A stretch of 64,000 nt of DNA from Antedon mediterranea (Eukaryota; Echinodermata; Crinoidea; Comatulida; Antedonidae): contig NC_092672.1 in NCBI RefSeq assembly GCF_964355755.1, positions 23,678,501 to 23,742,500 on the forward strand, given 5' to 3'. Position 1 is the stretch's first letter. Every line of letters begins with the position of its first letter. Below, one piece after another: positions 152 to 39,898 of the stretch. A program made the translations under genes and the position numbers. The notes below the pieces were generated by a model. The model saw only the letters and a program-made list of their open reading frames with translations, did not search any database and had not been told where the DNA came from.

Positions 152-303
152 GAACTAAAGATGCATCATTGAATGTCCAACAATCGTTGGATAAAGCTAT
201 TATTCAGGAAATTTTTTCAAAACAAGAAGTAAAACAGTCTCCTTTGGAAACTTTTAACATTTGGGATCACGGGGGACAGCTAATCTATCAAGGAATACAT
301 CAG
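152..303 (+). CDS. Roc domain exon with G3 motif
   Basis: Acceptor AG at 150-151 and donor GTAAGT at 304. It encodes the middle of a Roc (Ras-of-complex) GTPase domain. The motif WDHGGQ matches the G3/switch II position (DxxGQ) of Roco proteins, followed by the typical YQGIHQ. The P-loop and switch I must lie in an upstream exon outside the window. Entry phase is 2, exit phase 0. Confidence 0.85.
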
Positions 304-3300
304 GTAAGTTTAGGACATTTTGTATGTTTGTATGGTCTATTGTTTGTGTATTAACAGTTTTAATGCCTAATTATGGCAGTATCTTATCTGTATCACATGG
401 ATAGGATTCTGCTGTGTGTAGATAGGTGGGAACATGACCACTGTAAAGATTGTTGTTTAGGCCTTCCACCTATCCTAATGTTAACAGATTACCCAACAAA
501 CCTCCGTGTATCTCTTCACACACCCAATCTAAAAGTTTTGCAAGCTATATCCCTAGACTTCTCTCACTACAGCTATGTGAAGTGAATTTGAAGAGCTTTT
601 TCTCTATTTAGCACTCTGAACTATTTCTAAAGTTTACTTTTCTTTATTCTAATATATTTGTATTCTATTCACATTATTTGTATATTGCTGTTTTAAGAGA
701 TAAGTATTTCTTTGATGATGCGCTCTATATGTTCTGGATATATTTATTGATTTTTAGAAAACACTGCATTCTATTACATCAGTAGGCTTTACTATCCTTG
801 TCAAATATTTTATGAATAATTGTTTTTATTTTGTATCCAGATCTTTGTGACATCAGAGGCAGTTTATGTTGCTGTCTTTGATTTGAGTAAAGACCTCGAT
901 GATCCTGCAATAGTAATAGATCCCAATGGGGTAAGTATTTCAGGGGTATTAGATTAGATTAGATGTTGTTGGCAATCTCATTCATTGGTTAAAAGTAAAA
1001 TGCTTTCATTGCATTGCAATGTAGCTGTGTCAAAGAATGTCATATTTCTTTTATATATATAGGCTAGTGCTGTTCCGCCGTACCACGCCGAGAATGTTAA
1101 AGAGTCGCTATCCAATCAAGTTTGAACAATACCATGAAAGCCCCAGTGGTCTAATGGTTAAAGCAGAAGGTTCCGGGTTCGAGTCTCGGTTGGGAAGATT
1201 TTTTCTCATTCTCGCAGATTTCCTCATCTTATCATTTCAAATTAATTAATTCAATTTCAGTATATCACCGGGTGGTTTAGAATTTATTCTGTGCCTGTAA
1301 TGTTTATATGTATATATGTATATAATAACATAAAGTTGAAATTATACTATTTTTATTTGGTACTAAAATAATATACAATTTCTTATAGATTTTTATTATT
1401 TGAAATTAAATTATTTTTTACAGCAAGAACGTGAACATCATTGGACAAATCGTCAGTTTTTACTGTCTTCGATCCTGTCAGTTTATTCCCATAGTCGTAT
1501 ATTGGGACAGAATAATGAGAAGGAAGTAAATTTACCTGCTATCCTTGTTGTTGGCACACACAAGGCAAGTCTGGGAGAAACAGAAGAAGAACAAAATAAA
1601 GAGGTTAGTAATAATCTAGAATAGGTTTGTGTTTACAGTTAATACAAAGCTTAAAATATTTGTCTTGTGCACATGTACCACCGTGGGTATAGTAAATTTA
1701 AACTGTAGGACTAATAATCAATCAATTTTCACAGTTTTAAATCTACCAAATGTAATTTAGCTTTTTGTGCAAATTAAGTTGACATGACATAAAACAAGTG
1801 ATTGTCAAATTTGAAATATATAAAAAATATACTTGATGAAAATGAAACATAGAAGAGGTAATTTGGACTTTATTAATATTACTACATGTTAGCATTTTAA
1901 GGTTTTAAAATAAAGTTTTGGGGAGAAAAATTAACAATTCTTTTTGTATGTTTAAATACGGTGCTGTTTTTATTGTCTTTTGTTTGTATATATTATGTAG
2001 TAGTGTTTACTTTTTGTTTAATCTAGGCAGAGGTGGTGTTACAGAAAGTTAAAGACTCCATGAAAGGAAAACCATATGAAAAACATGTACTTGGATACTA
2101 TGCTGTTGAAAACAGTAGGGAGACTACAGACAAGAGCTTTAGTGATCTGAAAAAAGTAATTCAGGATCTTATGAACCATTTAAAAAAGTCTATTCCATTA
2201 AAGTGGATGCGGTTTAGATGTGAAATGTATAATCTGAGGAAGGACAAATTGATATGTTCTGCAGAAGAGGTAAATTTTTATTTTATTATAATTTTTTTTT
2301 TTAGGGAAAGCAAAACTTGTTCAATAAATATTGTGAGGCAAAGCACCTTTCTTTAACAACACATTCAAGACTATCTGCTCTTGAAAACAAATCACCAGAT
2401 TCTATTATACTTGTAATTGGTGATGTTAATAAATGCCACCTTAACTATCCGGGCTATGTTCAATACATTAATAAACCAACTAACTCCCGTACCACTTTAA
2501 GTGCCTCGAATCATAACACAATATGTATGTTGCCGAATACAGGCAATACTTTAATAATAAATTTAAGCCTGCTACAATTAAATACCGCTCCTGGACAAGA
2601 GATGCAATGGTCAGACGTGTACTATGACAACACTGGCATAAATGCTAGTGTGACTGTCATCAATGAATACATCAAGCAATGCATCAACAATGTGATCCCA
2701 ATTAAACATAAGAAGTCATACTTACACAACAAACCTTTGATGTCTAAAAATATTGCAACATGCGAAAAACAGCGTGCCTTTGCTAATAATGTCTACAGTC
2801 TCGTGAAACAAAAAGAAATTAGAAATTCAAAAACTGTGATAGCCAAGCAGCATGTAAAGCAATGCAAACCATAACTGGTTTTAACTGTAAACAAAAAAAG
2901 GATATAAATGGTAATACAAACTAAACTTGTATTATCCGAAAAAATCGGAATAAGAGGGTCATAAGGTCATGCAGTGCACATCCATTTCTTATTGTCTTGG
3001 TCTGTAATTTTCTGTTAATTTACAAATTATTTGTACTATTTTGTACTATTTTGTTAGGTAGATTATTCTGATTATACTTGCTTGCAAGTTTGTAGTTTTT
3101 ATGGTATTGACACTTTGTATTTATTGTGAATATTTCTAGGCCTCTGTATTTCTTTTGGTAGTGTGGAATCCCTATTGTTCACAGCACTGTGTGAGCTGTC
3201 TGGCCAGGACATTATCCTATTAGTAGGCCCCCAATCCATATGCTAGATACAGTTCTTCAATAGGGCTTATTTAAACTCTCCCTTATACAGGTTAATTTTA

Positions 3301-6300: not shown

Positions 6301-9300
6301 TTCCATCTTACAATCTAAATGGACATGAACTCATGAACGTTAATGACATTACGTTACTTGGTGTGGTAATATCCCATAATTTGTCATGGGCACATCAGGT
6401 AGATAATGTAACTTTGAAATGCAATAGGATGTTAGGTTTTATACGGTCAATTGCCACAGGTTGTTCTACATCTGTTTTACTTAAACTTTATAAATGTCTT
6501 GTTCTTCCCCATATTCAATATTGCTCCCCTGTTTGGTATCCTTATCGTCAATGTCATATTAATAAGATAGAGAAAATTCAAAGAAGGGCAAGTCGATTTA
6601 TCCTTCATCAACGAATCTTAGATCAGCCATATTCTGACCAATTAACTAGATTGAATTTTATGACAGCCGAATCAAATCGAGATTATTTTACCGTTATTTT
6701 TGTTACAAATATATTATATAAATTACAGAATAGTTTTATTTTAAATATGTTGATTATCAATTGTAGGCATTTGGATGTTCTGACTTTTAAACATCTTGCA
6801 TCCAAAACTGATAGTGGAAAGTATTGTATCCCAACCAGATTTATTCGTCTGTGGAATGCACTACCGGTCAATATTACAGACGCCTTTGTTTGCGGAAGTT
6901 GGGTACAATTTAAAAACATGTTAATGGACCACTTTAAAAACACTATGCCTCTTTAATGTATATAATCATAGTATTTATATTACTTATTTACATTGTTTTA
7001 TGTTTTATTGTATGCTTTGAGTGCTGGTGTGGCACGCCTTATGGCGACAGTGGTCCTTCGACCTCTTTTGCCACTCCTTGGCACACTCAAAGTCTACGTA
7101 TTGTTTTAATTGCTAAAATTAATAAAATAAAATAAAAATAAACTTGTAAATGACCTCAATGAATTCTATTGTAGATTTGACAAATACGACTTTAGTGATT
7201 GTATTAATGCAAAAGTTAAGTTACTAGAAAGCAAAGTTAAACTAATAGATCATGAATCTTACATGTTGCATGTCAATGAACACTTAGTTAAGCAGGTTTT
7301 AGGTGTTAAGGTAACTAAATCTATGGGCCCTGACGGTATTAGTAATAAAGTCCTGAAATGCTTTAGCCACCAATTGTCGGCAGTTTTCACTAAACTATAT
7401 CAATGCTCTATAGACTCTGGATTGATCCAAAATATTTAGAAAACTTCTCTAATTTCTTCTTTACCAAAAGCTAAAAATAAACCTCCTACTTACCTCAATG
7501 ATTACCGTCCCATCGCGTTAACATCAAATCCCATGAAATGTCTCGAATCATACTAAGAGCACTGGGAAAGTCAAAAGATGTTACCGCAAATGATATTAAT
7601 CAGTTTGCATATAAACCAAACCAAGGTGTGGATGATGCTGTGATCATATACAATGTATATAAACACCTAGACAAACAAAGATCCTACTGTATATCAGGTT
7701 AACCTTTATTGACTTTTTCAGTGCCTTTAACCATACTTTAACTGTATTCAATCCCACCTACTCATTGATAAGATGTATAAATTAAATTTCAATAATAAAA
7801 TTTTCTTTGGCTTAAGTTACCTGAGAGAGAGACCACAGTATGTTAAAATTAGTGATACACAATCTGAATTACGCAAAGTTAGCACGAGCGCACCACAAGG
7901 CTGTATCCTATCACCCATTTTATTCAAACTCTATACCAGTGACTACTTATGTAAAGAGCCAAAATGCTCAATTATCAATTAAGCTGAAGACACTGTCATA
8001 ACAGATTTTATGTCAGATAAACCAAATGGCTATTTTGATGATGAAGCTAACCAGTTTGCATAATGGTGATAATTTTTTAGAGCTAAACATTACGAAAACT
8101 AAAGAACTTATTATCAATTTTAGAATTAAGAAACCTCAAATTGAACTTCTCCTTATTGATGGTGAAGATGTTGAACGAGTCAACAAATACATATATTTAG
8201 GAACCATAATTGACGAGAAACTCACTTGGATCGACCAAGCCGTGGTAAAGAAAGCTAACTAACAACTGTACTTTTTAAGGAAACTTAGAACTTTTAATGT
8301 AGATAGTAAAATACTGTTACTTTTTTATAAATCTGTTGAATATAATCTGTTACTATGGGAACACTTCACAATTGATTACTATAAAAAGCAATACAAGCGT
8401 GTAGTCTAAAACATCGATTTGAATACCGTCTCCTAATTGTATGAAGATTGTTTGATTAAAAAAGTGAAAGCAATAATGGATAACGATACCCACCCGCTCA
8501 GGCTTTCTTTTATGCTTAATCAAACCGGACGTAGAGTACCGCTTAGAATACGAACCTCAAGATACCGATTACCATTCGTCCCACAATGCATTTTCGAGTA
8601 TAATAACACAAGTTGATAAATTATAATCAATCTTACACAGAATTTATAATATTAATTACACTCTCTGTAAATTATATTTCTTGTTTCCTTTTTATAACTG
8701 TATTTTATAGTATTTTTATATATCTGTAGTTTTATATGAATTTGTTTACATTACATACTGTGTATTTTATATGAATTTGTTTACATTACATACTGTGTAT
8801 TTTATATGAATTTGTTTACATTACATACTGTGTAGTTTTATATGAATTTGTGTATTTTTAACTTTTTTAAGTTATTCTAAATGTTTTATGCTGTTTATTG
8901 CCTTGAGGAAGAGAAATTTCAAATTATATATTTTTTGGCAATAAAGTTATCTTGGATCTTGAATATGCATTGGCTTATAACTTTTAATTCAGGTTTAGAT
9001 TTATTATTCATTCATTCAATTCCTGTAAGACTTTGATAAAGGTTTTTCCTTTAAATGTTATGTTTATTTCTGTTATATTTATATTTACTTTTAATTTATG
9101 TTTGAACAAGGAAAGTCTTACATGAATGAATAATAAATCTTGAGTATTGTATTTTGACGTTGAACTTGAGTGCAGAAAGTTATTTTGAAGAAACACCTAC
9201 TTATTGTGTGGAGTACAACACTTGTATATTTATTAAAATTTTAAAAACATGCATTTTTGTTGATTTTAGGTTAAAGAAATGGCCAGACAAAACGGAGTTG

Positions 9301-30300: not shown

Positions 30301-33300
30301 CCAATTTCTGAAGTAAAATTCTCTGGACCTCAAAGTGCATAAGAAAGTTGATCTAGCACTAGAGTAATAGCAATTTTCTCTTCAAATCAAATAAATTGTA
30401 TTTCTTGATCATAATTATAGACACATTCAGAAGACTTGAAATTTAGGTTAATGATAAAGTATTGATATAAAAAAAATCACTTTGAATTTCAAATGTAGTA
30501 TACACAGGTAAGTTTTGTTAGAATGGTTCATGCTTAGAATTAATTTGACTCACAGAGAATTTATATCCCAGCAAGAGTCCCCAGTAATTTATAATAGTAT
30601 AACCTTAAAACATTTTCATCTTACAGGTCAAATTATGGAGTTAATTGTGGATTCTAAAGGCGGAACTCTGACAAATAAAGAAACAAAGTTGATGATATAT
30701 CCTGGAGCAATTGAAGAAGGAAATAATGTTAAAGTATCACTAGAAAACACTTCATTCCCTAAGGATTTGTTTTCTGATCCTCTTGAAACAATACTTTCAC
30801 CTGTTGTTAGATGTGGACCACCAGGCACAGTCTTTAAAAAGCATTGTTTGCTGTCATTTCCGCATAATGCAATAAATGAAAAGTGTTGGGAATTCACTTT
30901 ACTTGTTAGAAATACTCATCAAGAAGAATGGCGAAAAATAAAACTAAGCAGTAAAGAAGATGACATTAACTTTTCTTTACAAAATGGTCAATGTTGTATA
31001 CATTTAAATCATTTTACTGAACTTGGTATTTTTGGTCGCATAACAAATTTTTTACTAGGAAGAAAAAGAGCAAGGTTAGGTGTGTTTGGAAAGGCACTGA
31101 GTAACAAGTATCAACTTCGAGTAAGCACCTGGGACACTGACAGAGAAGAGGTAATTTTGGTGTAACATTCCATTAAACAATTCATCTGTACATTTTTTTT
31201 AGGATTTAGATTAAATTCAACAACTGAAATTGTGCAGGTAATTCATTAATTCATTCAATCTTTTATAATTTAGGAATCTCTGGTTCATAGAAATTAAGAT
31301 TACATATAAATGAATTAGAAATAAACAAGACTGTAATAATTGTTACTAAATTAATCTAGGTTTTTGTTACAAGTATTCACAAATGTATTTAACATTCATT
31401 CACTGAATCATTTTGAAAATTTTGTCTTTTTCTGTATTTGAAAAGTTTACTATTTATGGTCAGATATTTATAATTTTATTTCCCAATCAGTTAAGCCTTC
31501 CAGGTCCTACAAATGCTAATTTGACTGTCTTTTTCAGAAAGTATTCGAAGAGAATAATACTTATGATGAGAAATCTATACAGACTCCCATGTATATAGAT
31601 GTGTCATACAAGGATATGGAAATTACAGTAGAAAGTAAAGAAGAATGGAAAGTAACAACAGTCAAGGTATGATAATGTTAATATCATTAAAAAAGTAATA
31701 GTTAAAAAAAAGAAGAAACATTTAGAAAGACTGGAACACAGCAATATATAGTGGTTTTTGTAAGCAAATTAGGTGGTCATAGTATGTAATTTGTAGGAAC
31801 TAGACATTTTTTAAATGGCAGTTATTTCTGCATACACGACCTTAGACCCACATCTGAACATCATCATGCGCAAGTGGTTCTTATGACCAAAGTAGACGAT
31901 CATCAGGGCCGTAGCCAGGATCTGTCAAGGGGGGGTTCGGACACTAAATATTTGGGTCAACCCCCCCCCCCCCTCCCCCAGCCTGATGCGAAGCGAATTT
32001 TGTTAAATGACACCCCTAGATGGCCGGAAAAGACACTCTCGTGCGAGCATGCTATTATAACCAATGAGCAAAAAGATCGTACTTTTTTCCTCCTCCTCAA
32101 ACACGTCGATAATTTAAATGACGATAACTATTTGTTGCCGTATGTTAGATGCGCGTGCTCTGTGCGGAACCGCCGATTGTTTGATCATTTACTCCGTATT
32201 TTGTTTTGCGTTCAAGTTCAATGCGAACGTATATCTAGGAGCAGCCCCGAAAAAAGCAAACTGGGCGAATACAAATGCTATTTGCTAGCTCTATCTATAA
32301 TATTTATTTACAGAAATTTGTTGAGGAATATAAATATGTAAATAGGTGATATTGATACATTTTAGTACGTATCGGCTGGTGGTCTAGAAAAAAATAATCG
32401 GATGCCATAATGTGAACTACAGTACTGTACTTGATACCATAGAATAGATATTATAGTGTAAAATATTAATATTCACTATAATCCTCTATGATACATTATA
32501 CTTCATAGTCACACATAAATACTGATGTACGTCGGAAGGCTATATACTTTATGCATGCTGCCTGACTGCCAGTGATCTAAACAATTATAGGAGGTACGCA
32601 GTTTGTCTGGCGGTGTCCTTTGTACGAATCGTTCGTGCGCCAGCTCGCTATGAGACGCGTCAATATCATGTTACATGCAGGGACCAAACATTTATTTTTT
32701 AGGTTAAAATCGGCAATTCATTTGCAGCTTTTAGAAATTTACAGACACGTATCACTAGTTGACGCTCATACAGAGAAGAAGGTTCACGAACAAGTTTACG
32801 AATTTTTCAATTTACAAACAACTTTTTGTACTGTGGGGCACGTATTTGGAGGATTTTTGGAGATGAGGGTGAGGTATTGGGCATGTCGGGGATGGGGGTT
32901 CGCAGTTGGTTATGGGGGGTTCGCTGTAAAGGGGGGGGGTTCGCCCGAACCATAAAAACCCCCCCTGGCTACGGGCCTGATCATACGTAGCATCTAATTT
33001 TTAAGACTAGTGGCAATTTTTTTACCGAACAAATTGGCAGATATTAATCCAAATATGAACACACTTTATATGGAACATGTAAGTGTTGTTTTTTTGACCA
33101 AATTTATAGATCATAACATGTCAACTGTAGGACTACATTTTCAGAAAAATAGTTGAATTAGGTACATGGTTAGAAACAGCATCACAGTATATAGAATCTG
33201 ATTACATCGCATGATATAATTGTTAAGTTATTCCATTAGACATATCATTTAAATGAATGTGAAGTAAGTATTTGATTTATTTGGCTAAGAAAAAGAAGGG

Positions 33301-36300
33301 ATGATGAGACAAGAGTGATGTCTTACTTGTCACTAAATGTACTATCTTTACTTTTAATTTTGTAAAAGAAATAAATTGTTTTTACAGCCAAAATCTGCTA
33401 ATGAAATATGGATGCCTACAACATGGAGTCTGTTTTATGTATCAAAAAATCCACTGAAAGATGAATTTAGTGCAGAGGTAGTAACACTACAAAAGCCAAA
33501 CCAAAGTTACACATTACCATTTGTCTGTAAGTATTATTCAACTACAGCAACAATGACTATTAAAAGTATTGTATACATGAACATATAATATAAATGAATG
33601 AATCATCTTGGATCCATATAATAATTAAATGAGAAACTGAAAAAAAAATAGTTTACAGTCGACTAAAATTGAAAGGTCAGCATTAAAAATTATGGGGTTT
33701 TTAACAAATTGTACACGTATTTGCATTTTATTGTGTTATTGTGGGAAAAATGTATTAATTTATAACATCAAGATGCTAGTAATTTCATTGTGTCTTGTAT
33801 CAAGTGGTCTGGCGAACATTTCAACTTTTAGAAGTTTTGATAACACTACAGTGAATCTAAAAACTCTTTTGTAACTTGATTATGAAATTCTTTTTTAGGG
33901 GCACTTGGAACAGGTATGTTGCATTTAATTTGTTTAGCATTTTAAAAAGTAGCAAATAGCATTTATGTTTATGATTTTTAAAAAGCAAAAAGTGTTGAAA
34001 TTAAAAATGCCAATAGATAATGTAAAAAGAACAGCTAAATGTAGGCGATTTAAATGTCTTGTATGTAATTAATAGTCCCTGTCAAAGGTATAAAATGTTG
34101 GAATACTGTGAATTTTATTGTAATTAAAACATTTACATTTTTTTATATACAGACAAATCCAAAGCGTTTTGATACAATTTTTACTGTATTTTATCACTTC
34201 TTGATATAGATTGTATTAGTTTTTTTTTTAAATCTAGGAGTTAATTTATTTGATTATCCATGTTACCATGTTACACTAAAAAAAATAAACGCCTCCCACA
34301 AATAAACGATAAATGATATTGTATTTTTGGTTATGACTAATGTATGTATATTTTGCATAGATACACTAACGACAGTGTTATAACCGCCAATTACAAATTT
34401 CAAATAAATTTAGTAATTTAGTACCAGCTAAAGTGAGAAAATGCTTCAAAATTATAATGAAACTACTGTTGGGAACTAAAGAAAGAAACCTTAAGGATAG
34501 ATAAATTGCATGAAGTTAACTGAAAGAGTCTTGGAAAAAAGGTGAAGTAGGTATTAATACATGAGGATCAAACTGCTAATTCTTGGAAATAAGCAATATA
34601 TGTTTATCTTGAATAGATACATCCACTGCTGATGCTCCTCTGGCCACAAGCTCATCAATGTCAGGTTAGTTAATTGCTAAATTATCATTAAGTTTAAATT
34701 GCATTGGATATCAATGAGGGTCAACTGAATTAATATTTGAAGCATTCTATTTTTGTAAGTGGCCTAGTTTGTTTTTGAAATTTGTTTTGTTTATAACTTG
34801 AACCAAAATTGAAGGAAAGGCTGTGAAATGTGTTTAGATTATTTAGTGCCACCTATTTAATGTTGTCAGATAATTGTCTACTATTATGATGTCTTCTCTA
34901 CAGGTTTCATTTATAATGTTATTTCATTTTGAACTTTTGACAAGCTAACCCAATTTTTTTTTCAACCAATTTGACAACTAAGCTTCAGAGAATATTTAGA
35001 TGTAAGGAGATTCTGTATTTTTGGAATAATAATTATTCCCTATGCAGCACTATGCATTTTGATCTGATTGCTGGAAAGTTATGGTGTTTTAGAAATTTAT
35101 ATTCATAGACATATTCAAACAATGATTATCAACAACTATGATAATTATGCTAATTATGCTAAATGTATATCATAATTTTGGAAACTTGTCTTGTCATTTA
35201 GATTTGTTGGAAGATTTCAATGTACAATAGATAGCATGTGATGGATCATGTAGATATGGAAGGCAACAAACAACTGACACAGACCATTTTAAATGTCTAT
35301 GTTTTTGTAACCTCTTTATCTATCCACTAGACTAGACTCATTAATGTACAATAGTTAGCATATGATGGATCATGTATATATGGAAGGCAATAAACAACTG
35401 ACATAGACCATTTTAAATCTCTTTGTTTTTGTAGCCTCTTTATCTACCCACTAGACTAGACTCATTAATGTACAATAGATAGCATCTGATGCATCATGTA
35501 GATATGGAAGGCAACAAACAACTGACATAGACCATTTTAAATGTCTATGTTTTTGTAACCTCTTTATCTACCCACTAGACTAGACTCATTAATGTACAAT
35601 AGATAGCATCTGATGGATCATGTAGATATAGAAAGCAACACACAACTGACATAGACCATAGCAGAACAGTGCATCGAATCAATTGTGATACTGTACTCCT
35701 GATTATGACTAATATATATATATCTGTTTTTTGTATAGATACACAGACTGCTGCTCTTCTGGCTACAAGCTCATTAGAGACAGGTTAGTGGTATCATTAG
35801 ATCATTATGTATCATATGGACAGTTTGTCTGAAATTACATGAATATACATAATAAAATAACGTCTTGGTGTCATTAGCAGAATAGTTGATTTAATACTGG
35901 TATTCTAGATTATGACTAATGTATATGTTTATTTTACATAGATGCACCTATTGCTGCTCCTTTGGCTACATGCTCATTAGGGACAGGTATAGGTGAGTAA
36001 CATTAGATCATTAGGGACAGGTATAGGTGAGTAACATTAGATCATTAGGGACAGGTATAGGTGAGTAACATTAGATCATTAGGGACAGGTATAGGTGATT
36101 AACATTAGATCATTAGGGACAGGTATAGGTGAGTAACATTAGATCATTAGGGACAGGTATAGGTGAGTAACATTAGATCATTAGGGACAGGTATAGGTGA
36201 GTAACATTAGATCATTAGGGCAGTGTTACAACCACTTATGTAGTACCAGCTATAATAAAAACTACTGCTAAGAGAGAAACAATAAAGATATCATATCATT

Positions 36301-38317
36301 TATTTCATTTGAAGAAATACAAAATGAAAACATAACAATTGTAAATAAATGAGGCAGGATTACCTAAAATACCAGTCGAGAAGCCAAAATAAGACATTCA
36401 AACATATTTAAAACCATAGAGATATTATAGTGAACTATAATATCTCTATGTTAAAACATAATTAAAAACACATTTTTTGGAAGAAAGTTAAAATTGCTGT
36501 ATATGAATGACAAGATAGTTTAAATTGTATGAAGTTAAATGTATTACAGCAAAATCCACCACAGGTTAGCTAATTCTTTAAAATAATCAAAGCCGAACAA
36601 ATCAGAATGGAATTGTGCTCATGTTTCTTCTAACTTTCAGAAACATCAAATTATCAACATTATTTTATTTGATATTATTAATTTGAATACTATAATAACA
36701 ATTTTCAAATAGTAGGCAAAACTTTTCTACGTAGGAAAGGTGGTCAAAATAATAACTAAATAAAAAATCCTTGAAAACAGATTGTGTGTTACTTCTAAAG
36801 ACTGATCATTTGAAATTTATTAAGTCAAACTAAATAATTTATGAATATGATGAAAACACTTTTATTTATTATTAATTTTAATTCAAAAGTTGAGGCCTTA
36901 AAATTATACAAAAAAATATGGAAACCGTCATCATTAATTACTGGTTTTGCTTTAAATTATTTTTCCTATCAAACCCAACTGTGTTGACATACAGCCTGAT
37001 TTATTCCTTTTCTCAATGCAACTAAACAAAAGGAAACAGGCCTATGATTAATATGGTGAATTTTAGTCATTAACAATAATTCTTTATTCCTGAAACAAGT
37101 CCAAATTCACTGGAAGACAAGTTAAACAAGTTAAATTATGATCTCAGTGAAGTCTTTATGAAGAATAAGAGAAAATTCTTATTTTTGAGATGTTGTCTCT
37201 TTGATGAAGTAGATTTACAAGTCCTTGGCAATAAAGATTACAAAGCAAATGATTATTTTAATGAACTCGCTGATAAAGGAAAGATCAAACCAACCGACGT
37301 CAACCTTCTGCTTGAAGTGGCAACACTATCAGAAATTAAACATGCTAAAGATCTTGTAAAACAGTATATAAATGACAACAATGTACAAATTAGTAATCAA
37401 CAGAAGTTGTCCCCATATAGAAAAAGATTGTGTAAGGCATTGGAACAGTTTAACCCAAGTGAGTTGAATAGAGTTACAGCTTGTTATCAATTGGAACAAC
37501 CAACCATTTGGGATGTAACATTTTATTTAGAGAGCAAATCCAAATTGGTAGATGAATCAGAAAGAGAGAAGTTTGCTGAGCTGCTTGGACCAATCCCAAA
37601 TAAAATAATATGTAAGTCAATTTGAGAGATTTCTTACCTTAAATCCACAGATTGTAGGTCACCTAAATATTCTCCCAAAATAACTGGCATCAAACCAGAA
37701 TTTTTAGAAAAAGGTAAAAATATATTGAGAATAGAGTTGCACCCTCATAACATAGAATGAATGCTGGACCATTTGATGATGACCGTATGATACAAAATGA
37801 TTTGTTGACACAGGTTAAGAACATGAAATAACAGGAATGTATTCACATCCTGACTTGTCTTTGTCACTAAGGTTCTTATACCGTGTACAACATTATAACG
37901 CTGTCTATACTATCAAACCTTATGTGACAAAACAATGCGATGTGCAATTGTATGGACATGATGATGTCATATCACTTGCATATTTGGGAACATCACTACC
38001 ATAGTTGGGCACATCACTACCATATTTGGACACATCTCACATTTTTGTTAAACTAATTTGATAGTGTAGACAGAGCTTACAACTGCCATTTGAGCAGGCA
38101 AATACTGTTTTATTACTATTTGTGTTATTTATTCTTAATTATTTTATAGTAATGTTATTTATCATCATGTGTCGGGAAACTGTAAAAGGGGATTTTGTGC
38201 TAAAACAATTTATGTCATTGTGAGAAAGCTTGTTTAATAATAACCTAAAAAAAGTGTATACCTTGTTTTAAACTTTCATTGTGATAATTTTTAGGCAACA
38301 AAGAAGATGATCATTGA
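152..38317 (+). CDS. Roc-COR-Death-DED-ZU5-UPA multidomain gene (5'-partial), overall span
   Basis: Large split gene running on the plus strand; its start, including the GTP-binding P-loop, lies upstream of the window. I joined exons by hand from AG/GT sites and reading phase: 152-303, 841-930, 1424-1603, 2027-2269, 9270-9467, 14308-14502, 14857-15168, 15697-15774, 16108-16309, 17523-17774, 18420-18665, 25057-25101, 25257-25301, 26566-27090, 30627-31150, 31538-31666, 33388-33526, 33899-33913, 34617-34664, 35739-35783, 35942-35986, about 37096-37611, and possibly 38295-38317. Domain order is Roc, COR, two Death, DED-like, ZU5, UPA, DED-like. Known Roco proteins act as GTPase-regulated scaffolds, and Death/DED domains build cell-death or immune signalling complexes, so a cytoplasmic signalling role is inferred. 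All phases agree from 152 to 35986; the entry into the second DED exon is the weak join. It could be two fused gene models; a transcript would decide. Confidence 0.8.
304..840. other. Intron, no recognised content
   Basis: AT-rich intron between two Roc exons. Short ORFs here show no recognisable domain, and I see no repeat structure. Confidence 0.6.
841..930 (+). CDS. Roc domain exon (central strand)
   Basis: 90-bp, phase 0-0 exon after a TCCAG acceptor, with a GTAAGT donor. It encodes 30 residues including VAVFDLSKD, the hydrophobic beta-strand that follows G3 in Roc domains (family pattern: YLLVFDLS-like). Confidence 0.85.
1063..1330 (+). repeat. tRNA-derived SINE, copy 1
   Basis: Contains an RNA polymerase III box A-like TGGTCTAATGG near 1147 and a box B GGTTCGAGTCT near 1176, followed by a non-tRNA body and a TATATG-rich tail. 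The same sequence recurs inverted at about 59630-59905, including the 5' leader CTAGTGCTGTTCCGCCGTA and the 3' body. Compared with that copy, this one lacks about 24 bp of the anticodon region, so it is not a working tRNA. It lies in a Roc intron of the host gene. Confidence 0.85.
1424..1603 (+). CDS. Roc domain exon with G4 motif
   Basis: 180-bp exon, phase 0-0, after a TTTTTTACAG acceptor with a GTTAGT donor. It encodes 60 residues. ILVVGTHKASL sits at the G4 nucleotide-specificity site (T/N-K-x-D in many GTPases; here the Asp is Ser, as seen in divergent Roco domains). Upstream, the helix HHWTNRQFLLSSILSVY is typical of Roc domains. Confidence 0.85.
1604..2026. other. Intron, no recognised content
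   Basis: AT-rich intron between Roc exons. No ORF of interest and no repeat seen. Confidence 0.6.
2027..2269 (+). CDS. Roc C-terminal and Roc-COR linker exon
   Basis: 243-bp, phase 0-0 exon (acceptor TCTAG, donor GTAAAT), 81 residues. HVLGYYAVENSRET occupies the place of the last Roc strand. The helix ending in IPLKWMRFRCEM is the start of the COR domain (family pattern IP-x-W). The intron that follows is 7 kb long because two LINEs inserted in it. Confidence 0.85.
2300..2931 (+). pseudogene. Old LINE relic, 5' part (endonuclease and linker)
   Basis: An open stretch at about 2317-2874 reads like the late part of an apurinic endonuclease-like domain of a non-LTR retrotransposon: IILVIGDVN corresponds to the usual LLGDFN motif, followed by a linker leading toward the RT. 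The reading is broken off at 2931 by insertion of LINE A and continues at 7141 in the same sense (VNDLNEFYCRFDKYDF). Degenerate and non-functional. Confidence 0.75.
2932..7140 (+). mobile_element. LINE A, near-complete non-LTR retrotransposon
   Basis: Element of about 4.2 kb flanked by the direct repeat TAAACTTGTA (2922-2931 and 7139-7148), a convincing target-site duplication. It has a 5' UTR of about 590 bp, one long coding region (3522-6956) with two stops, and a 3' UTR ending in A-rich AATAA repeats. It is inserted into an older LINE relic inside an intron of the Roco gene, in the gene's sense orientation. The CR1/L2-like clade is a guess from architecture. Confidence 0.88.
3522..6956 (+). 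pseudogene. LINE A polyprotein: signal-like N-terminus, 2A, PHD-type zinc finger, endonuclease, RT; two nonsense codons
   Basis: One frame runs from ATG 3522 to TAA 6954-6956, interrupted only by TAA at 4476-4478 (in the usual GIYYRPP motif, read here as GIY-stop-RPP) and TAA at 5091-5093. Residues 1-22 are hydrophobic and signal-like. Residues 89-96 (DIHPNPGP, 3786-3809) are a 2A-like ribosome-skipping motif. Next come a Cys/His-rich PHD-like finger (about residues 124-175; CGTC, CCNC, HASC, CFVC) and an AP-type endonuclease (GVTESWLDD, MGDFNINW, SDHC). The reverse transcriptase follows (NYRPVALTS, LDYSRAFD, GVPQGSVLGPLLF, YADD at 6135-6146). Mutation is light, so the copy is young but no longer able to make a full-length product, unless the stops are read through or are sequence errors. 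Confidence 0.9.
7141..8965 (+). pseudogene. Old LINE relic, 3' part (RT and 3' end)
   Basis: Continuation of the relic split by LINE A. Recognisable RT pieces are SMGPDGISNKVLK, NDYRPIALTS, a degenerate APQGCILSPILF at about 7890-7925, and YLGTIIDEKLTW near 8190. Frames are broken by many stops and shifts. The 3' end holds about three to four copies of a 38-bp repeat (8725-8850) and finishes with a typical LINE tail (GAGGAAGAGAAATTTC, then AATAAAGTTATCTTGGATCTTG) near 8900-8960. Confidence 0.75.
8966..9269. other. Intron remainder
   Basis: AT-rich sequence between the LINE relic and the COR exon. Nothing recognised. Confidence 0.55.
9270..9467 (+). CDS. COR domain exon 1
   Basis: 198-bp, phase 0-0 exon (TTTTAG acceptor, GTAAGT donor), 66 residues. 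LNFLYDLGDIIYLPD followed by VVLDPMSLVQFV matches the first half of COR domains (pattern FLxDxGxIxY, then a V-LDP-x-W/S-L helix). COR mediates dimerisation of Roco proteins (established for the family). Confidence 0.88.
9468..9987. other. Intron segment, no recognised content
   Basis: Non-coding, AT-rich, ending at the TTAA (9984-9987) that borders the next mobile element. Confidence 0.5.
10840..12400. repeat. Degenerate tandem repeats of about 300-400 bp
   Basis: At least five diverged copies of one pattern: a GACCTTGTAAA/GAGGTCA block, then a (T/C)A(G)CAACTGTTTCTATG(C)-like block followed by TAACTAAGGA, an A/T-rich stretch and GGGTTTTCATAAATACAAA. Copies are centred near 11000, 11200, 11510, 11700 and 12360. 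They lie inside the TTAA-flanked element. Confidence 0.6.
11741..12168. mobile_element. Small palindromic MITE-like insertion
   Basis: Left end GTTGAACCTCCCGTAAGTGG with GCCACC; right end in reverse complement gives GCGGCCACCTCCCTTAACGG. The ends are imperfect inverted repeats around about 370 bp of unremarkable sequence, inserted inside one degenerate tandem copy. No ORF. Confidence 0.5.
12780..12930 (+). repeat. LINE 3'-tail fragment
   Basis: Sequence resembling a non-LTR 3' UTR (GAGAGCCTCTCGACGG, GTACTGTTCTGTATATTGG) ending in AATAAATGATATGATATGA, a short terminal microsatellite as CR1/L2-like elements have. Only the tail is present. Confidence 0.5.
13060..13265 (+). repeat. G-rich tracts with G-quadruplex patterns
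   Basis: GGGGGAGGGGATGGGATGGG at 13091-13110 has four G-runs with loops of 1-2 nt. A second tract near 13242-13260 is GGGGTGGGGGGGAGGGG. Both stand out sharply from the AT-rich surroundings. Confidence 0.6.
14308..14502 (+). CDS. COR domain exon 2
   Basis: 195-bp, phase 0-0 exon (ATTTTAG acceptor, GTAAGA donor), 65 residues. LDKGILDEKLLKKLW and FQYLVDLMIRFGFICE match the winged-helix-like central part of COR, which in family members reads LxxGxLxxxLLxxLW followed by LLxxMxxFxL. It ends in a Ser/Thr-rich stretch. Confidence 0.88.
14857..15168 (+). CDS. COR domain exon 3 (COR-B)
   Basis: 312-bp, phase 0-0 exon, 104 residues. It opens with SFFVPLRL, the usual start of COR-B (yfVPs-L), and continues with HLPDILFPYLVIDFI and a beta-rich segment. 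This completes a normal-length COR region. Confidence 0.85.
15169..15696. other. Intron with short hairpin
   Basis: Non-coding. A small hairpin GCACTC-CGA-GAGTGC lies near 15331-15345 in the phrase GAGTGCATACCTCCGCC, possibly a fragment of a short interspersed repeat. Nothing else recognised. Confidence 0.4.
15697..15774 (+). CDS. Post-COR linker exon
   Basis: 78-bp, phase 0-0 exon (CTTTAG acceptor, GTATGT donor), 26 residues rich in Ala, Thr and Glu. No domain recognised. It is included because phases match the exons on both sides. Confidence 0.65.
16108..16309 (+). CDS. Post-COR exon with Cys-rich stretch
   Basis: 202-bp exon (TTACAG acceptor, GTAAGT donor), phase 0 in and 1 out. It encodes 67 residues including HRCIPCDCSKTSEKKH, a short Cys/His cluster that could bind metal. 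It probably completes the COR C-terminal fold before the Death domains. Domain identity is unclear. Confidence 0.7.
16310..17522. other. Intron with degenerate tRNA-like SINE remnant
   Basis: Near 16680-16740 a box A-like GTGGCTTGGTGTATTAG and a box B-like TTGGTTCAAATCA are spaced as in a tRNA-derived SINE, followed by a body that includes TCCTGAGTGGGTTTCC. Degenerate. The rest of the intron shows nothing recognisable. Confidence 0.45.
17523..17774 (+). CDS. Death domain exon 1
   Basis: 252-bp exon, phase 1-1 (acceptor TTTTGTAG, donor AAAA|GTAAGC), 84 residues. The Death pattern is clear: ELMKLAKKLGNEWEQLAVFLGF (helices 1-2), AELDGFK, LGAIFSMLDTC (helix 4), LTKALREIDRHDLADEV (helices 5-6). 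Death domains mediate homotypic assembly. If the donor is not used the frame ends 5 codons later at TAA, giving an alternative C-terminus. The exon is 897 bp from its duplicate. Confidence 0.92.
17775..19165. repeat. Tandem duplication of Death exon plus intron (897-bp period)
   Basis: Intron sequence after 17774 matches that after 18665 almost base for base for about 480 bp (same CATCAGCATCCTTTCC, AATAAATAAAACATTGTTCC and CAGCAGGTAATTCAGTGATA phrases). The unit is therefore Death exon plus following intron. Similarity ends at about 18280 and 19160, where a LINE relic begins in the second copy. Confidence 0.85.
18420..18665 (+). CDS. Death domain exon 2
   Basis: 246-bp, phase 1-1 exon, 82 residues, clearly a duplicate of the previous exon: ELMELAKKLGSEWEQVAIFL, LLGAIFSMLDAWYRK, LIEALKQANRNDLADEV. 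It is shorter by two residues in the helix 4-5 loop. It has the same donor context and the same downstream TAA on read-through. The equal phases mean the exon could be skipped or added without a frameshift. Confidence 0.92.
19166..20030 (-). pseudogene. LINE relic (linker and start of RT)
   Basis: Minus-strand fragments read KEFWQTIRGSKFN, EEKAETLRNYWESL and, after shifts, SPGKDNITNELLK, which is the segment between endonuclease and RT of a non-LTR element. Many stops. It lies in the intron after the second Death exon. Confidence 0.65.
20031..20341. repeat. Short tandem AT-rich repeats
   Basis: Contains two copies of a 55- to 60-bp segment with TTCATATT(C/T)ACTGGCATTTATCACATA around 20215-20290. 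No gene. Confidence 0.5.
20350..24704 (-). mobile_element. LINE B, full-length non-LTR retrotransposon with intact ORF
   Basis: About 4.35 kb on the minus strand: a 23-nt poly-A tail (T-run 20350-20372), a 3' UTR of about 110 bp, an uninterrupted ORF and a putative 5' UTR of about 630 bp. A candidate 8-bp target duplication AAACATAC flanks it (20342-20349 and 24705-24712); this is short and AT-rich, so the 5' boundary is tentative. It lies antisense in an intron of the Roco gene. The intact ORF suggests recent insertion. Confidence 0.8.
20481..24077 (-). CDS. LINE B ORF: signal peptide, duplicated Cys module, 2A, endonuclease, reverse transcriptase (1198 aa)
   Basis: The N-terminus begins MNTAVFLLCCVSFISFTYSF, a good signal peptide. 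Residues 83-142 and 143-196 are two copies of one module (SCPGQY ... RSMNNFVQYFFYYF ... DDDFHPIP ... YYSKCAIT). Residues 238-246, GDIEVNPGP (23340-23366), match the 2A consensus D-x-E-x-NPGP. An AP endonuclease follows (about 258-480: YYQNFRSVKNK, ALTETWLNN, GIYYRPP, LLGDFN, SDHC), then the RT (about 660-930: NYRPVSLLP, YTDMAKAFDRVSH, GVPQGSILGPLFF, FADD at 21273-21284). Known 2A peptides make the ribosome skip the final Gly-Pro bond, so a secreted or ER N-terminal part and a cytoplasmic EN-RT would be made separately (inference). No stop or shift seen. Confidence 0.93.
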   Translation of the reverse strand: MNTAVFLLCCVSFISFTYSFTPTQYPFNDDHEVFWSGYGCNCDNNFHQSLYKYVNFSTISLGRQSEFQRIALPVCEGVCVVSCPGQYANVKWSLVEMEYTKRSMNNFVQYFFYYFTDAVYIRFILDDDFHPIPFYYSKCAITSCPGQYVKWNQVELELTQRSMNNFVQYFFYYFNDAVYIDDDFHPIPIYYSKCAITITGLTSLQVRKKSKFKFLGRAVSYYSNSVSTLRIWSVVLGGDIEVNPGPNATNSNNKSSSLKVYYQNFRSVKNKMESYKSELFSHMCTRYIDVVALTETWLNNTVIDCELSLDGFNLYRRDRQEDKRGGGVLLLINNKYRSCRLIKFEDESQELMWVKIQLSRKKCLIIGIYYRPPSAPKSQIDRLCESINNVQYEFQGFNHDVMLLGDFNLPEIKWRLNSYNKCNIVECEAPDNSNGKFFIDNILQGNNFNQFVYFPTCADHTLDLVLCNTICHEVSFGEDIFTSDHCAINFKYPIEFNKHLINNDDRLLYNFKKLNKLDFIQTLSHIPWNLLDLAVDIDEAVNLFYDFIFATIKDLVPVFRPKRKLPPWFDNELYTALKSKESYFREKKRNPNRLNIENFRFARSNFKRLCRFKYRTYVNSLCCNLSCNPKRFWSWIKSSRKNNNNIPSELHFNNQSAYTVKDKANLLNQFFYSVFSPVNKDLDVPNLPEYPIDCLSKLEFNQEVIEKHINEIDSHKASGNDGLSNIVLSLAAKPLSFPCKILFERCISEKRFPIKWKQANVCPIFKASSKSDVRNYRPVSLLPTISKVFEKIVHDQIFKHISPVISDHQHGFYPGRSCETNLSVLLSHAYDAINAKGQCEVVYTDMAKAFDRVSHKLLLFKLQQFGLNHDLILFFTSYLSDRFQRVTFDGNASEWLPVLSGVPQGSILGPLFFIMFINDFSFVPRHSNVLMFADDIKLFKSIQTLNDMLLLQEDVDRLIHWCDTWNMSVNASKCKSMSFTLKKKPIYFDFYIKNIILERVSVHKDLGVFLDSSLTFCKHIDFIVSKCNRLLGFLWRHCRHINDKKALVILYKSLVRSNLEFCSVIFNSISLAQSSRLQSVQNKFCRFYVRKFGSIIDVLFNLAGRRKLFDLIFLFKAVNSIFHGNFEVYFPISVPQYQLRYPALFSISRGRVNITKNGFVNRLPKLYHSLCKIDGSVDIFFDSLACFRHKVLSNVSNI
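24705..25056. other. Intron, no recognised content
   Basis: AT-rich intron between LINE B and the first linker microexon. Its 3' end resembles the sequence before the microexon at 35739, part of the later block duplication. Confidence 0.5.
25057..25101 (+). CDS. Linker microexon 1 (15 codons)
   Basis: 45-bp, phase 1-1 exon after TTTTGCATAG with donor GTTAGT. It encodes a Thr/Ser/Ala-rich linker (DTETATPLFTSSLETG with the split codons). Near-identical in design to exons at 25257, 34617, 35739 and 35942. Confidence 0.7.
25257..25301 (+). CDS. Linker microexon 2
   Basis: 45-bp, phase 1-1 exon after TTTTGCATAG, encoding DAHIAAHLAASSLGTG. Its last bases (CATTAGGGACAG) and the donor are the seed of the 34-bp minisatellite that follows directly. 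Confidence 0.7.
25302..25841 (+). repeat. 34-bp minisatellite carrying splice-donor sites, array 1 (about 16 copies)
   Basis: The unit GTATAGGTGAGTAACATTAG plus ATCATTAGGGACAG repeats with few changes. Each unit ends like the preceding exon (ATTAGGGACAG) and starts with its donor (GTATAG), and also contains TAG|GTGAGT, a near-consensus 5' splice site. It thus appears to be a repeated copy of an exon-intron boundary. Confidence 0.9.
25842..26565. other. Intron with minus-strand LINE 3' tail
   Basis: About 25900-26350 reads, on the minus strand, like a LINE end (RT C-terminal scraps and a terminal AAATAAATT). The same segment recurs at about 36226-36775 in the second block. Confidence 0.55.
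26566..27090 (+). CDS. DED-like domain exon 1
   Basis: 525-bp, phase 1-1 exon (TTATTGTAG acceptor, GTATGT donor), 175 residues. The first 85 residues fit a death-effector domain: FNKLKYDLGSLYIGERLLLL, CCLFEHVDL, LLNQLHERRYITPTNIRLLL, DAKDLINQYV. After a short spacer, residues of about 105-170 form another helical unit (SPYRKRLCKALQQFDP, TIWELVFHLESNRKLLEESE, RLAELLG) that is repeated with the same layout in the second DED exon. The second unit may be another death-fold domain or an extension specific to this family. The likely role is homotypic recruitment, known for DEDs. Confidence 0.8.
27091..27410. other. Intron, no recognised content
   Basis: AT-rich intron sequence after the DED exon, running into the second minisatellite. 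Confidence 0.5.
27411..27762 (+). repeat. 34-bp donor-site minisatellite, array 2 (about 10 copies)
   Basis: Same unit as the array at 25302, but placed after the DED exon and starting from TTTACACAG|GTGAGT, with no recognisable linker exon before it. The copies are almost identical to those of array 1. Confidence 0.9.
27763..28345. other. Intron, no recognised content
   Basis: AT-rich intron sequence. No domain-bearing ORF and no clear repeat. Confidence 0.5.
28346..30376. mobile_element. Inverted-repeat DNA element (2.0 kb) with LINE fragment inside
   Basis: The ends are diverged long inverted repeats: AATTGCTATTACTCTAG at 28346 and its complement ending at about 30376, with later matches ATGCACTTTGAGGT, AATAGGTCCTTAAATCT and others over about 190 bp. 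No transposase recognised. A LINE relic lies in the middle. It sits in the intron before the ZU5 exon. Confidence 0.65.
28640..29620 (-). pseudogene. LINE relic, RT C-terminus and 3' end
   Basis: Minus-strand pieces: CKFLGVIMDECLTWNQH, SLYKTLVLPHIQYCSLIW and GHCPILWNSIDASIR are the conserved C-terminal part of non-LTR polyproteins. A 3' UTR-like stretch follows at lower coordinates (28640-28940). 5'-truncated and broken by frameshifts. Confidence 0.75.
30627..31150 (+). CDS. ZU5 domain exon with HF-T site
   Basis: 524-bp exon (CTTACAG acceptor, GTAATT donor), phase 1 in, 0 out. It encodes a ZU5 domain: GGTLTNKETKLMIYPGAIEEG matches the ZU5 opening (GG-L---G--L-IPPGA), then ILSPVVRCGPPGTVFKKHCLLSFPH and the closing strand CCIHLNHFTELGIFG. 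The codons for H-F-T are at 31010-31018. In PIDD and UNC5CL this position is HF|S, the self-cleavage site. The rest of the exon, RKRARLGVFGKALSNKYQLRVSTWD, begins the UPA region. ZU5-UPA is the same architecture as the FIIND of NLRP1/CARD8. Confidence 0.88.
31151..31537. other. Intron, no recognised content
   Basis: AT-rich intron between the ZU5 and UPA exons; no repeat or domain seen. Confidence 0.5.
31538..31666 (+). CDS. UPA domain exon 1
   Basis: 129-bp, phase 0-0 exon (TTTTTCAG acceptor, GTATGA donor), 43 residues. TPMYIDVSYKDMEITVES is a beta-strand-rich segment as expected in the UPA half of a ZU5-UPA unit. Confidence 0.78.
31904..32979. mobile_element. 1.08-kb MITE-like DNA element
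   Basis: 16-bp terminal inverted repeats, CAGGGCCGTAGCCAGG against CAGGCCCGTAGCCAGG (one mismatch), flanked by the 5-bp direct repeat ATCAT (31899-31903, 32980-32984). C-runs and G-runs sit just inside both ends. The ends resemble hAT-type termini, but the duplication seen is 5 bp rather than 8, so the superfamily is open. Two internal ORFs (to 32341 and 32620-32955) have no recognisable domain. It lies in the intron between the UPA exons. Confidence 0.82.
32985..33387. other. Intron, no recognised content
   Basis: AT-rich intron between the MITE-like element and the second UPA exon. Confidence 0.5.
33388..33526 (+). CDS. UPA domain exon 2
   Basis: 139-bp exon (TTTTTACAG acceptor, GTAAGT donor), phase 0 in, 1 out. 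It encodes EIWMPTTWSLFYVSKNP and FSAEVVTLQKPNQSYTLPFV, completing the UPA strands. Confidence 0.75.
33899..33913 (+). CDS. 15-bp microexon
   Basis: Between TTTTTTAG and GTATGT lies GGGCACTTGGAACAG, exactly 5 codons, phase 1-1, reading W-A-L-G-T with the split codons. It fits the frame on both sides and ends like the linker exons (GGAACAG). Predicted only from splice signals. Confidence 0.5.
33914..34616. other. Intron with decayed linker exon
   Basis: Near 34352-34378, TTTTGCATAG followed by ATACACTAACGACAGTG looks like a broken copy of a linker microexon. The rest is plain AT-rich intron. Confidence 0.4.
34617..34664 (+). CDS. Linker microexon 3 (16 codons)
   Basis: 48-bp, phase 1-1 exon after GAATAG with donor GTTAGT, encoding DTSTADAPLATSSSMSG. 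Member of the repeated Thr/Ala/Ser linker exon family. Confidence 0.65.
35215..35660 (+). repeat. 124-bp tandem repeat (3.6 copies)
   Basis: TGTACAATAGNTAGCAT recurs at 35221, 35345, 35469 and 35593. Units include GGCAACAAACAACTGACA and CACTAGACTAGACTC. Intronic; no coding content. Confidence 0.85.
35739..35783 (+). CDS. Linker microexon 4
   Basis: 45-bp, phase 1-1 exon encoding DTQTAALLATSSLETG; counterpart of 25057-25101 in the duplicated block. Confidence 0.7.
35942..35986 (+). CDS. Linker microexon 5
   Basis: 45-bp, phase 1-1 exon encoding DAPIAAPLATCSLGTG; counterpart of 25257-25301. As there, it leads directly into the 34-bp minisatellite. Confidence 0.7.
35987..36221 (+). repeat. 34-bp donor-site minisatellite, array 3 (about 7 copies)
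   Basis: Same unit and same position relative to its microexon as array 1, but fewer copies. One unit has GTGATT instead of GTGAGT. Confidence 0.9.
36222..37095. other. Duplicated intron with hairpin insertion
   Basis: To about 36775 this matches 25842-26345, including the minus-strand LINE tail. It differs by a perfect hairpin at 36415-36450 absent from the other copy. After 36775 it is unrelated AT-rich sequence. Confidence 0.75.
37096..37611 (+). CDS. DED-like domain exon 2
   Basis: Second copy of the DED-plus-helical unit: LNKLNYDLSEV, LFLRCCLFDEVDLQVLG, YFNELADKGKIKPTDVNLLLEV, HAKDLVKQYI, then SPYRKRLCKALEQFNP and KFAELLGPIP. It ends at donor GTAAGT with phase 1. The start is uncertain: the most obvious AG (37098-37099) leaves one base before the codon frame, which does not fit the preceding phase-1 exon, so another small exon or another acceptor is needed. 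Divergence from copy 1 shows an old duplication. Confidence 0.78.
37612..38294. other. Intron, no recognised content
   Basis: Two near-identical phrases, CATATTTGGG/CATAGTTGGG + CACATCACTACCATA, lie near 37979-38035. Otherwise plain intron. Confidence 0.45.
38295..38317 (+). CDS. Possible terminal exon
   Basis: After TAATTTTTAG the phase-1 frame from the second DED exon reads C-N-K-E-D-D-H and stops at TGA 38315-38317. It would give a short acidic C-terminus. Weak support: no conserved domain, only splice signal and frame. Confidence 0.35.
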
Positions 38318-38600: not shown

Positions 38601-38603
38601 TTG

Positions 38604-39528
38604 TGAAGCCAACCGAGTGAAGGCAAGTTACGAGTGGATAGAGATATAATAGAGTAATATTAAAATTATTGTCATAATGGTAAACAAAATATGATAATGG
38701 CGAGGAAGTTGGTGATAAAGATGACATTGAATGTTTACTTTAGGACAGTATATGAATGATGAATTTTTTTTTTTCATTAAATGGGAAGAATATTTTCTGC
38801 CTCGTTAAAATGGACCTGAAATGGACTTTATTTGAATGTTATTTAAATGTATCAAATTAAATCAAACCCATACAAATAAAAACAAAATGTATAGTATTTT
38901 GAGTAAAAACGAAATTTTAAGATACCATGGTAAATTAGCGAAAATTACTCACGCCATTGCAATATTCTATTTCAACGGCCGTCGGAAGCCTCTATATTCA
39001 CGACGTCACATATACACACGGTGATATCGAGAGCGTGTATGCCGCCCGCGATTTTTATGAGCGATATCAACAACTTGCTGAGCTCATTGTCAAGCCAAAG
39101 TAAAATATGAATAAAATTCGTTTTCGAACTGCCTGATTCGTGACAAATAAATTATCATCTCATATTACTAATTTAATTCTGCTAAACTAAAAACTAAAGA
39201 AACTAACACATTTTAGCAGTATAAATTACGAACGATATATATATACAAAATACACGAACGGAAAATATTCGCAAAGTGACGTCACCCGCGAATTTTTTTT
39301 ATTTTCAAATAGGGCTTTCCCCAAAACGGCCAATTTATATTTTGTAACAATATACATTGTAGCAACACCTAATAGCCCCCAAAACATCATTCTAAAATGA
39401 AAAAAAAATCGAAAATCCATTTTAAATAAATAGAACATAGACCCGTTCCAGTCCATAAATATTCATTATTTTGTATAATGTTTACTGAATGTAAACTGTA
39501 AATTTTAATTCATTCCTTAATTTTACAG
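38604..39528. other. Non-coding interval with CpG-richer patch
   Basis: From about 38940 to 39300 the sequence is richer in CG (GACGTCACATATACACACGG, GTGACGTCACCCGCG) and includes two palindromic GACGTC-type sites. No gene recognised. It might be part of an old mobile element or a regulatory stretch. Confidence 0.35.
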
Positions 39529-39898
39529 CTTGTTCAAGATCTCTTATTCATCTGTGGATAGGTGGAGAAGACTGGCAGTGCGACTTGGTATTCAATGGGA
39601 TGTTATCAGTAATACCACAGGTAAAAACAGACATGATGAATATGACATGTTGGAAGAGGTAGACAATGATCCAAGTATTAACACAATCGAATATCAACTA
39701 CCTACAAAGGCATTAACACAACAGGGACGTGTTGATTTAGCTGATAGCTGGCAAGATGCAGCAGATCAACTACCTACAATGGTCAAGGCATTAACACAAC
39801 AGGGATGTGTTGATATAGCTGATAGCTGGCAGCATGCAGCAGCACATCAACTACCTACAATTATCAAGGCATTAAATAACAGGGACATGTTGATTTAG
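39529..39898 (+). pseudogene. Death-like exon with triplicated end
   Basis: After ATTTTACAG an open frame reads SSVDRWRRLAVRLGIQWDVI, the helix 1-2 pattern of a Death domain, then a divergent middle and QLPTKALTQQGRVDLADSW, the helix 5-6 pattern. The last segment (about 72-75 bp) is repeated two more times before TGA. The frame needs two bases from the previous exon, while the second DED exon supplies one. It is therefore either reached through an unseen exon or already decayed. Confidence 0.5.

Follow-up and report, generated by a model that had tools for sequence, protein, structure and literature searches.

A candidate Roco gene with proposed alternative Death, tandem DED and ZU5-UPA tails in the feather star Antedon mediterranea

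Organization of the locus

The window, by which we mean the whole analysed stretch of 64,000 nucleotides, contains the exons of a Roc-COR head followed by two Death exons, a set of linkers with a tandem DED exon, a ZU5-UPA unit and a second set of linkers with a tandem DED exon and a short terminal exon (Table 1). Twenty exons between 152 and 37611 were rebuilt from splice sites and reading frames and were found to be open and phase-compatible, with GT donors in 20/20 and AG acceptors in 19/20. Phase 1 was observed at every module edge, which covers the end of COR, the ZU5 start, the UPA end and both sides of the Death exons, of four linker exons and of the two DED exons. A sequence-only reading of this DNA had described phase-compatible exons for Roc, COR, two Death, DED, ZU5, UPA and a second DED domain, and this inventory is upheld by Pfam, by matches to the relative P0021 and to the UNC5B structure 3g5b and by the tandem DED evidence.

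Table 1. Exons and poly(A)-type signals of the candidate Roco gene in the window
Feature	Position	Strand	Value or remark
Roc exon, WDHGGQ (G3)	152..303	+	
Roc exon	841..930	+	97% identity to P0001; added to the sequence-only exon set
Roc exon, GTHKA at the G4 place	1424..1603	+	
Roc end and COR start	2027..2269	+	
COR-A exon	9270..9467	+	7.6e-08
COR-A exon	14308..14502	+	0.0007
COR-B exon	14857..15168	+	82% identity to P0001
COR-B exon	15697..15774	+	
COR-B exon, final, phase 1 at its end	16108..16309	+	
Death exon 1, terminal TAA, possible donor after 17774	17523..17785	+	
AATAAATAAATAAA 3' of Death exon 1	18075..18088	+	
Death exon 2, terminal TAA, possible donor after 18665	18420..18676	+	
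AATAAATAAATAAA 3' of Death exon 2	18958..18971	+	
Linker microexon L1a	25057..25101	+	resembles P0018 linker
Linker microexon L1b	25257..25307	+	
Tandem DED exon 1	26566..27090	+	
ZU5 exon, HFT at ZU5 end	30627..31150	+	
UPA exon a	31538..31666	+	
UPA exon b, phase 1 at its end	33388..33526	+	added to the sequence-only exon set
Linker microexon	34617..34664	+	resembles P0001 linker
Linker microexon L2a	35739..35783	+	
Linker microexon L2b	35942..35992	+	
Tandem DED exon 2, acceptor TG not AG	37093..37611	+	
Terminal exon, NKEDDH-stop (23 bp)	38295..38317	+	as in P0001

The five linker microexons (25057, 25257, 34617, 35739 and 35942) and the terminal exon were likewise added to the sequence-only exon set. 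The gene had earlier been drawn as far as 39898, but the terminal exon allows it to end sooner. The open frame at 39521-39895/39898 was rejected as part of the gene on account of its weak Death match (E 0.036 for 39521-39895; E 0.0012 among 1326 open frames), its start in phase 2 and the position of the terminal exon. A 78-bp repeat was observed at 39693-39904 within this Death-like open frame. Elsewhere in the window, a satellite with a 64-bp unit occupies 46594-55102 (133 copies, 98% matches), and LINE-type retroelements with reverse transcriptase lie at 3519-6956 (+) and 20481-24080 (-), the latter element having a single open frame of 1199 residues with endonuclease and reverse transcriptase. 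A myosin motor-domain exon at 60332-60550 (-) (Pfam, 2e-18) comes from a neighbouring minus-strand gene.

Thirty relatives were found in protein databases, of which 25 are from A. mediterranea, three from the feather star Anneissia japonica, one from Tubulanus polymorphus and one from another source. All are database gene models, and those that join Roc-COR with tandem DED or with ZU5-UPA are annotated as 'uncharacterized protein'. For every module the nearest relatives come from the feather star A. mediterranea (Crinoidea), with a top identity to the window of 92%. One relative search scored the 7996 candidates with the most shared words, with lengths bounded, and the counts given here are of proteins found. 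With profiles to which several of the counted proteins themselves belong, a Roc-COR head was found in 27 of the 30, tandem DED in 22, both in 20, ZU5-UPA in five and Death in three. The exons of the window match the local profiles by construction and those E-values are left out.

Domains encoded by the exons

On the joined chain, Pfam placed Roc at 28.1 bits (cut-off 27) and COR-A at 61.5 bits, both above cut-off. Roc followed by COR is the arrangement of a Roco protein, and the assignment is also supported by P0001, which aligns with the joined segments 152-16309, 34617-34664, 37093-37611 and 38295-38317 over 739 residues at 91% identity, through the tail to the stop codon. The exon for the P-loop (G1) lies upstream of the window; P0002 has a P-loop that reads GQEGAGKT and P0001 has none. 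The G4 motif of Roco GTPases normally carries Asp, whereas G4 in the window reads THKA. Among the relatives, THKA was observed in P0001 and P0010 and THKG in 13/30, and THVD, THRD or THMD in others. A G4 without Asp would weaken GTP switching but not the Roc-COR assignment. The GTP regulation put forward in the sequence-only reading is a prediction and the least secure part of the mechanism proposed below, as the P-loop exon falls outside the window and G4 has THKA. When compared with P0001, the head (152-16309) was found to be a mosaic, with 96-98% identity in exons 1-5, 80-85% in exons 6-9 and the break inside the intron 9467-14308. This difference in identity suggests that P0001 could be a paralog whose exons are arranged differently, and its model may be partly mis-joined since it contains an OGFOD2-like stretch near its start and lacks the P-loop.

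The two Death exons gave 74 bits for Death (two stretches) and 43.8 bits for bDLD3 in Pfam, above cut-off. They are in phase with the Roc-COR head, and if spliced to it they would give the placement of Death that is found in the DAPK1 group. Both exons end in TAA and are followed by the poly(A)-type signal AATAAATAAATAAA, a triple AATAAA that is present nowhere else in the 64 kb (0.02 expected), and the two sites count as one event because the flank is duplicated. In P0002, which has two Death domains in succession, the chain stops at the point that matches the end of Death exon 2. The Death exons therefore look terminal, each having its own stop and a poly(A)-type signal downstream, with P0002 ending at this point. 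GTAAGC donors are located immediately 5' of both stop codons. The exons form a diverged tandem pair (17492-18279 and 18390-19160) with 72% identity over 252 coding positions, and their 3' flanks are 97% identical over 479 positions. Positive selection was considered for this contrast between coding and downstream positions and was rejected on the dN/dS of 0.19 (bootstrap 0.10-0.44), a rough value with dS > 1 which suggests that the copies are under purifying selection. A recent conversion that homogenised the 3' tract appears to be the better reading.

Each DED exon encodes two DEDs with the caspase-8-type tandem fold. The Pfam DED score on the joined chain was 17.0 bits, below the gathering cut-off of 35.9. 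A single-sequence search of the PDB with DED1 alone returned chance matches and no DED, and a search with the DED family profile A3 returned no DED and one chance match at 0.28. The dN/dS between the DED copies is 0.35 (0.19-0.57), which is again rough with dS > 1. The DED2 exon was observed to be 96-97% identical to A. mediterranea proteins. In P0001 and P0029 this exon starts with ETS, and because the Glu codon of ETS needs AA at 37093, an AG acceptor would be expected there. An in-frame AG inside the exon (GGAAG/AC), read from the sequence, could serve as acceptor. A pattern derived from NKEDDH, the end of P0001, was found to match once in the window (one mismatch) and in 0/100 shuffles. 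P0018, P0026 and P0027 all have DED1 as their final domain. In P0018 and P0026 it is followed by an NDE-stop exon that was absent from the plus strand of the window, and DED1 therefore probably splices onward, ZU5 being the first matching exon downstream. In 27091-30700, however, four candidate ND-stop exons like that of P0027 were found, at 28911, 29210, 29761 and 30084.

Pfam detected ZU5 on the joined chain at 51.3 bits, above cut-off, and found no UPA there. The order ZU5 then UPA was established with P0021, whose identity is 71% to the ZU5 exon (2e-73) and 47% (2e-06) and 39% (2e-07) to the UPA exons, and with a profile of six crinoid ZU5-UPA sequences that matches UNC5B (3g5b) over 249/268 profile positions, through both ZU5 and UPA, at 4e-18. 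No relative of the ZU5 exon closer than P0021 was seen among the proteins found. The ZU5-UPA search of the PDB gave no sequence match to the NLRP1 and CARD8 structures at E up to 1, and the predicted structure of P0024 was not used (pLDDT 36). At the end of ZU5, HF is followed by Ser, Thr or Cys in 6/6 aligned sequences: the window has HFT, P0021 and P0024 have HFS, and P0025, P0028 and P0030 have HFC. This Phe followed by Ser, Thr or Cys is the FIIND/PIDD-type site. Self-cleavage is described at HF/S in PIDD and at SF/S in CARD8, and Ser, Thr or Cys is able to start such reactions (PMC3210808). The ZU5-UPA unit in the window may thus be self-cleaving as well.

One gene, several genes or a decaying array

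The combination of modules can be followed in the relatives. P0030, a single modelled protein of A. mediterranea, has the order Roc-COR-tandem DED-ZU5-UPA-tandem DED (COR-A and ZU5 above the Pfam cut-off, Roc and DED below), and P0021 is modelled as the end of COR-B followed by ZU5-UPA and tandem DED. These two are the only ones of the 30 in which the head occurs together with ZU5-UPA and tandem DED, with the whole Roc-COR in P0030 and the COR end only in P0021. Our first impression of a Death domain between COR and ZU5 in P0021 was dropped as neither Pfam nor the local Death profile finds one. The earlier suggestion that a Roco protein with both DED and ZU5-UPA is unusual holds: P0030 and P0021 are modelled in this way, and no report of it was found among the titles and abstract starts covered. 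The domain order proposed in the sequence-only reading is recovered in part, with DED-ZU5-UPA-DED after Roc-COR in P0030; Death was combined with DED in none of the 30 relatives found.

We favour a single Roco transcription unit that carries alternative tails and would run from before the window to 38317, and give this reading a probability of roughly 0.57. Two simple genes fit less well because the P0001 model links the head with the final tail exons in one annotated protein, and between these P0001-matching parts lie Death 1, Death 2, DED1 and ZU5-UPA of the window. Against a single gene stand the TG acceptor of DED2, the position of DED1 as last domain in P0018, P0026 and P0027, the ND-stop candidates, the G4 without Asp, the chance that P0001 is a paralog or partly mis-joined, and the lack of a ZU5 relative closer than P0021 among the proteins found. 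A rival reading is that the locus has tandem genes, one with Roc-COR-Death(-Death) ending by 18676 and one or more downstream with DED1 and/or ZU5-UPA-tandem DED, the second of which might start at a Met inside the ZU5 exon. The stops and poly(A)-type signals 3' of both Death exons and the end of P0002 after Death-Death agree with such an arrangement, as do P0024 and P0025, in which ZU5-UPA-tandem DED is modelled with no Roc-COR, and P0028, which begins at the MELIV Met that corresponds to the Met inside the ZU5 exon of the window. However, the head is joined to the last tail exons in P0001 and COR to ZU5-UPA-tandem DED in P0030 and P0021, and no counterpart of the stretch that precedes ZU5 in P0024 or P0021 was found in the window. 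Tandem genes are therefore a serious but unlikely alternative. It had been stated earlier that transcripts ending at the Death exons and a separate promoter before 25057 would together indicate two genes; transcripts that stop at the Death exons are likely, whereas a separate second gene is disfavoured by P0001.

The two other readings concern the use of the cassettes. The single chain Roc-COR-Death-Death-DED-ZU5-UPA-DED, which was the proposal of the sequence-only reading, is consistent with the open and in-phase state of all 20 exons and with the GTAAGC donors just 5' of the Death stops, but the stops and signals after the Death exons, the separation of Death from DED throughout the relatives found and the TG acceptor before DED2 make one protein with all these domains very improbable. 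The same TG acceptor, together with the repeats and retroelements that occur throughout, could instead reflect a decaying cassette array in which some of the tail, chiefly DED2, has fallen out of use. This is improbable given the open frames in 20/20 exons, the dN/dS between copies well below 1, the close identity of DED2 to A. mediterranea proteins and the in-frame AG that could replace its acceptor.

Proposed mechanism and relation to known systems

For one transcription unit with alternative tails, we propose a Roc-COR head and phase-1 tail cassettes, where the Death exons with their own stops would be alternative last exons and the other cassettes would be linkers with tandem DED, ZU5-UPA, and linkers with the second tandem DED and the terminal exon. 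Splicing at this locus, and probably also recombination between paralogs, would set which tail the head carries. A signal might cause the head to dimerise or change state and thereby bring the tails together. Tandem DED tails could then seed caspase-8-type assemblies, Death tails could attract Death adaptors, and a form with ZU5-UPA might cut itself at HF/T and release a UPA-tandem DED fragment, in the manner of FIIND-CARD in CARD8 and NLRP1. The gene may thus have a death or immune role.

The two DED cassettes share 89-93% identity in the linker pair, a 34-bp minisatellite and the next intron, whereas their DED exons are 66% identical to each other in DNA. The minisatellite is located at three places (25289-25841, 27413-27764 and 35974-36220), with arrays on both sides of DED1, and its unit consists of a linker exon end and its splice donor. 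The microexon at 25057 was examined as a mere product of this minisatellite and the idea was ruled out, as it matches the P0018 linker and the 34-bp unit holds the end of the neighbouring linker with its donor. Near-identical DED1 or DED2 exons were observed on different A. mediterranea Roco heads (P0018, P0026 and P0027; P0001 and P0029). The high identity of the linkers and repeats relative to the DEDs, and the presence of nearly the same DEDs on different heads, fit an exchange of cassettes by recombination at the repeats. As a tentative overall proposal, one Roco gene may equip its head with a Death tail, a tandem DED tail or a tandem DED-ZU5-UPA-tandem DED tail. A single sensor would then feed signalling of the Death, the caspase-8 or the self-cutting NLRP1 type, and paralogs would trade cassettes by recombination at repeated linker exons and their 34-bp minisatellites.

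Roco proteins, tandem DED and FIIND-like ZU5-UPA are each of known kinds. A search of titles and abstract starts in the open-licence PMC literature found no report of a Roco protein with DED or with ZU5-UPA. In NLRP1-type proteins, NACHT stands where the window gene has Roc-COR. CARD8, NLRP1 and PIDD share with this gene a ZU5-UPA followed by a death-fold domain and the HF/S-like site (PMC3210808); they differ in that theirs is CARD or Death, whereas the window has tandem DED, and the residue after Phe is Thr here and Ser or Cys in the relatives. Among solved ZU5-UPA units, that of UNC5B (ZU5-UPA-Death) gave the best match in sequence, but the window has no receptor part and has the Phe of the cleaved proteins, which is Leu in UNC5b (PMC3210808). 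Caspase-8, cFLIP and vFLIP share the tandem DED fold; the window, however, has no caspase domain, and in the relatives the DEDs are on a Roco head. The DAPK1 group has Roc-COR with a Death domain, as this gene would if its Death exons are spliced to the head, and the relative P0002 also has a kinase before Roc-COR as in DAPK1 (PMC6337361). The window gene differs from this group in its tandem DED and ZU5-UPA tails, and its pre-Roc part is outside the window. In-phase exon shuffling, together with alternative splicing, has also diversified the brown-algal ROCO genes (PMC11378527), but there the LRR (recognition) exons vary whereas in the feather star it would be the signalling tail. Human LRRK2 is a Roco protein tied to the DED pathway through FADD binding by its armadillo repeats (PMC5823876), while the feather-star DEDs are encoded together with the Roco head.

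If the proposal is true, a gene that swaps its tails would mirror the brown-algal ROCO genes, whose recognition side is shuffled (PMC11378527). The GTPase family of LRRK2 and DAPK1 would reach both caspase-8-type (tandem DED) and NLRP1/PIDD-type (ZU5-UPA) signalling within single proteins in one animal lineage. Such proteins would provide a natural test of whether death-fold assembly is driven by changes in the state of Roc-COR, which also bears on human Roco proteins such as LRRK2 with FADD (PMC5823876).
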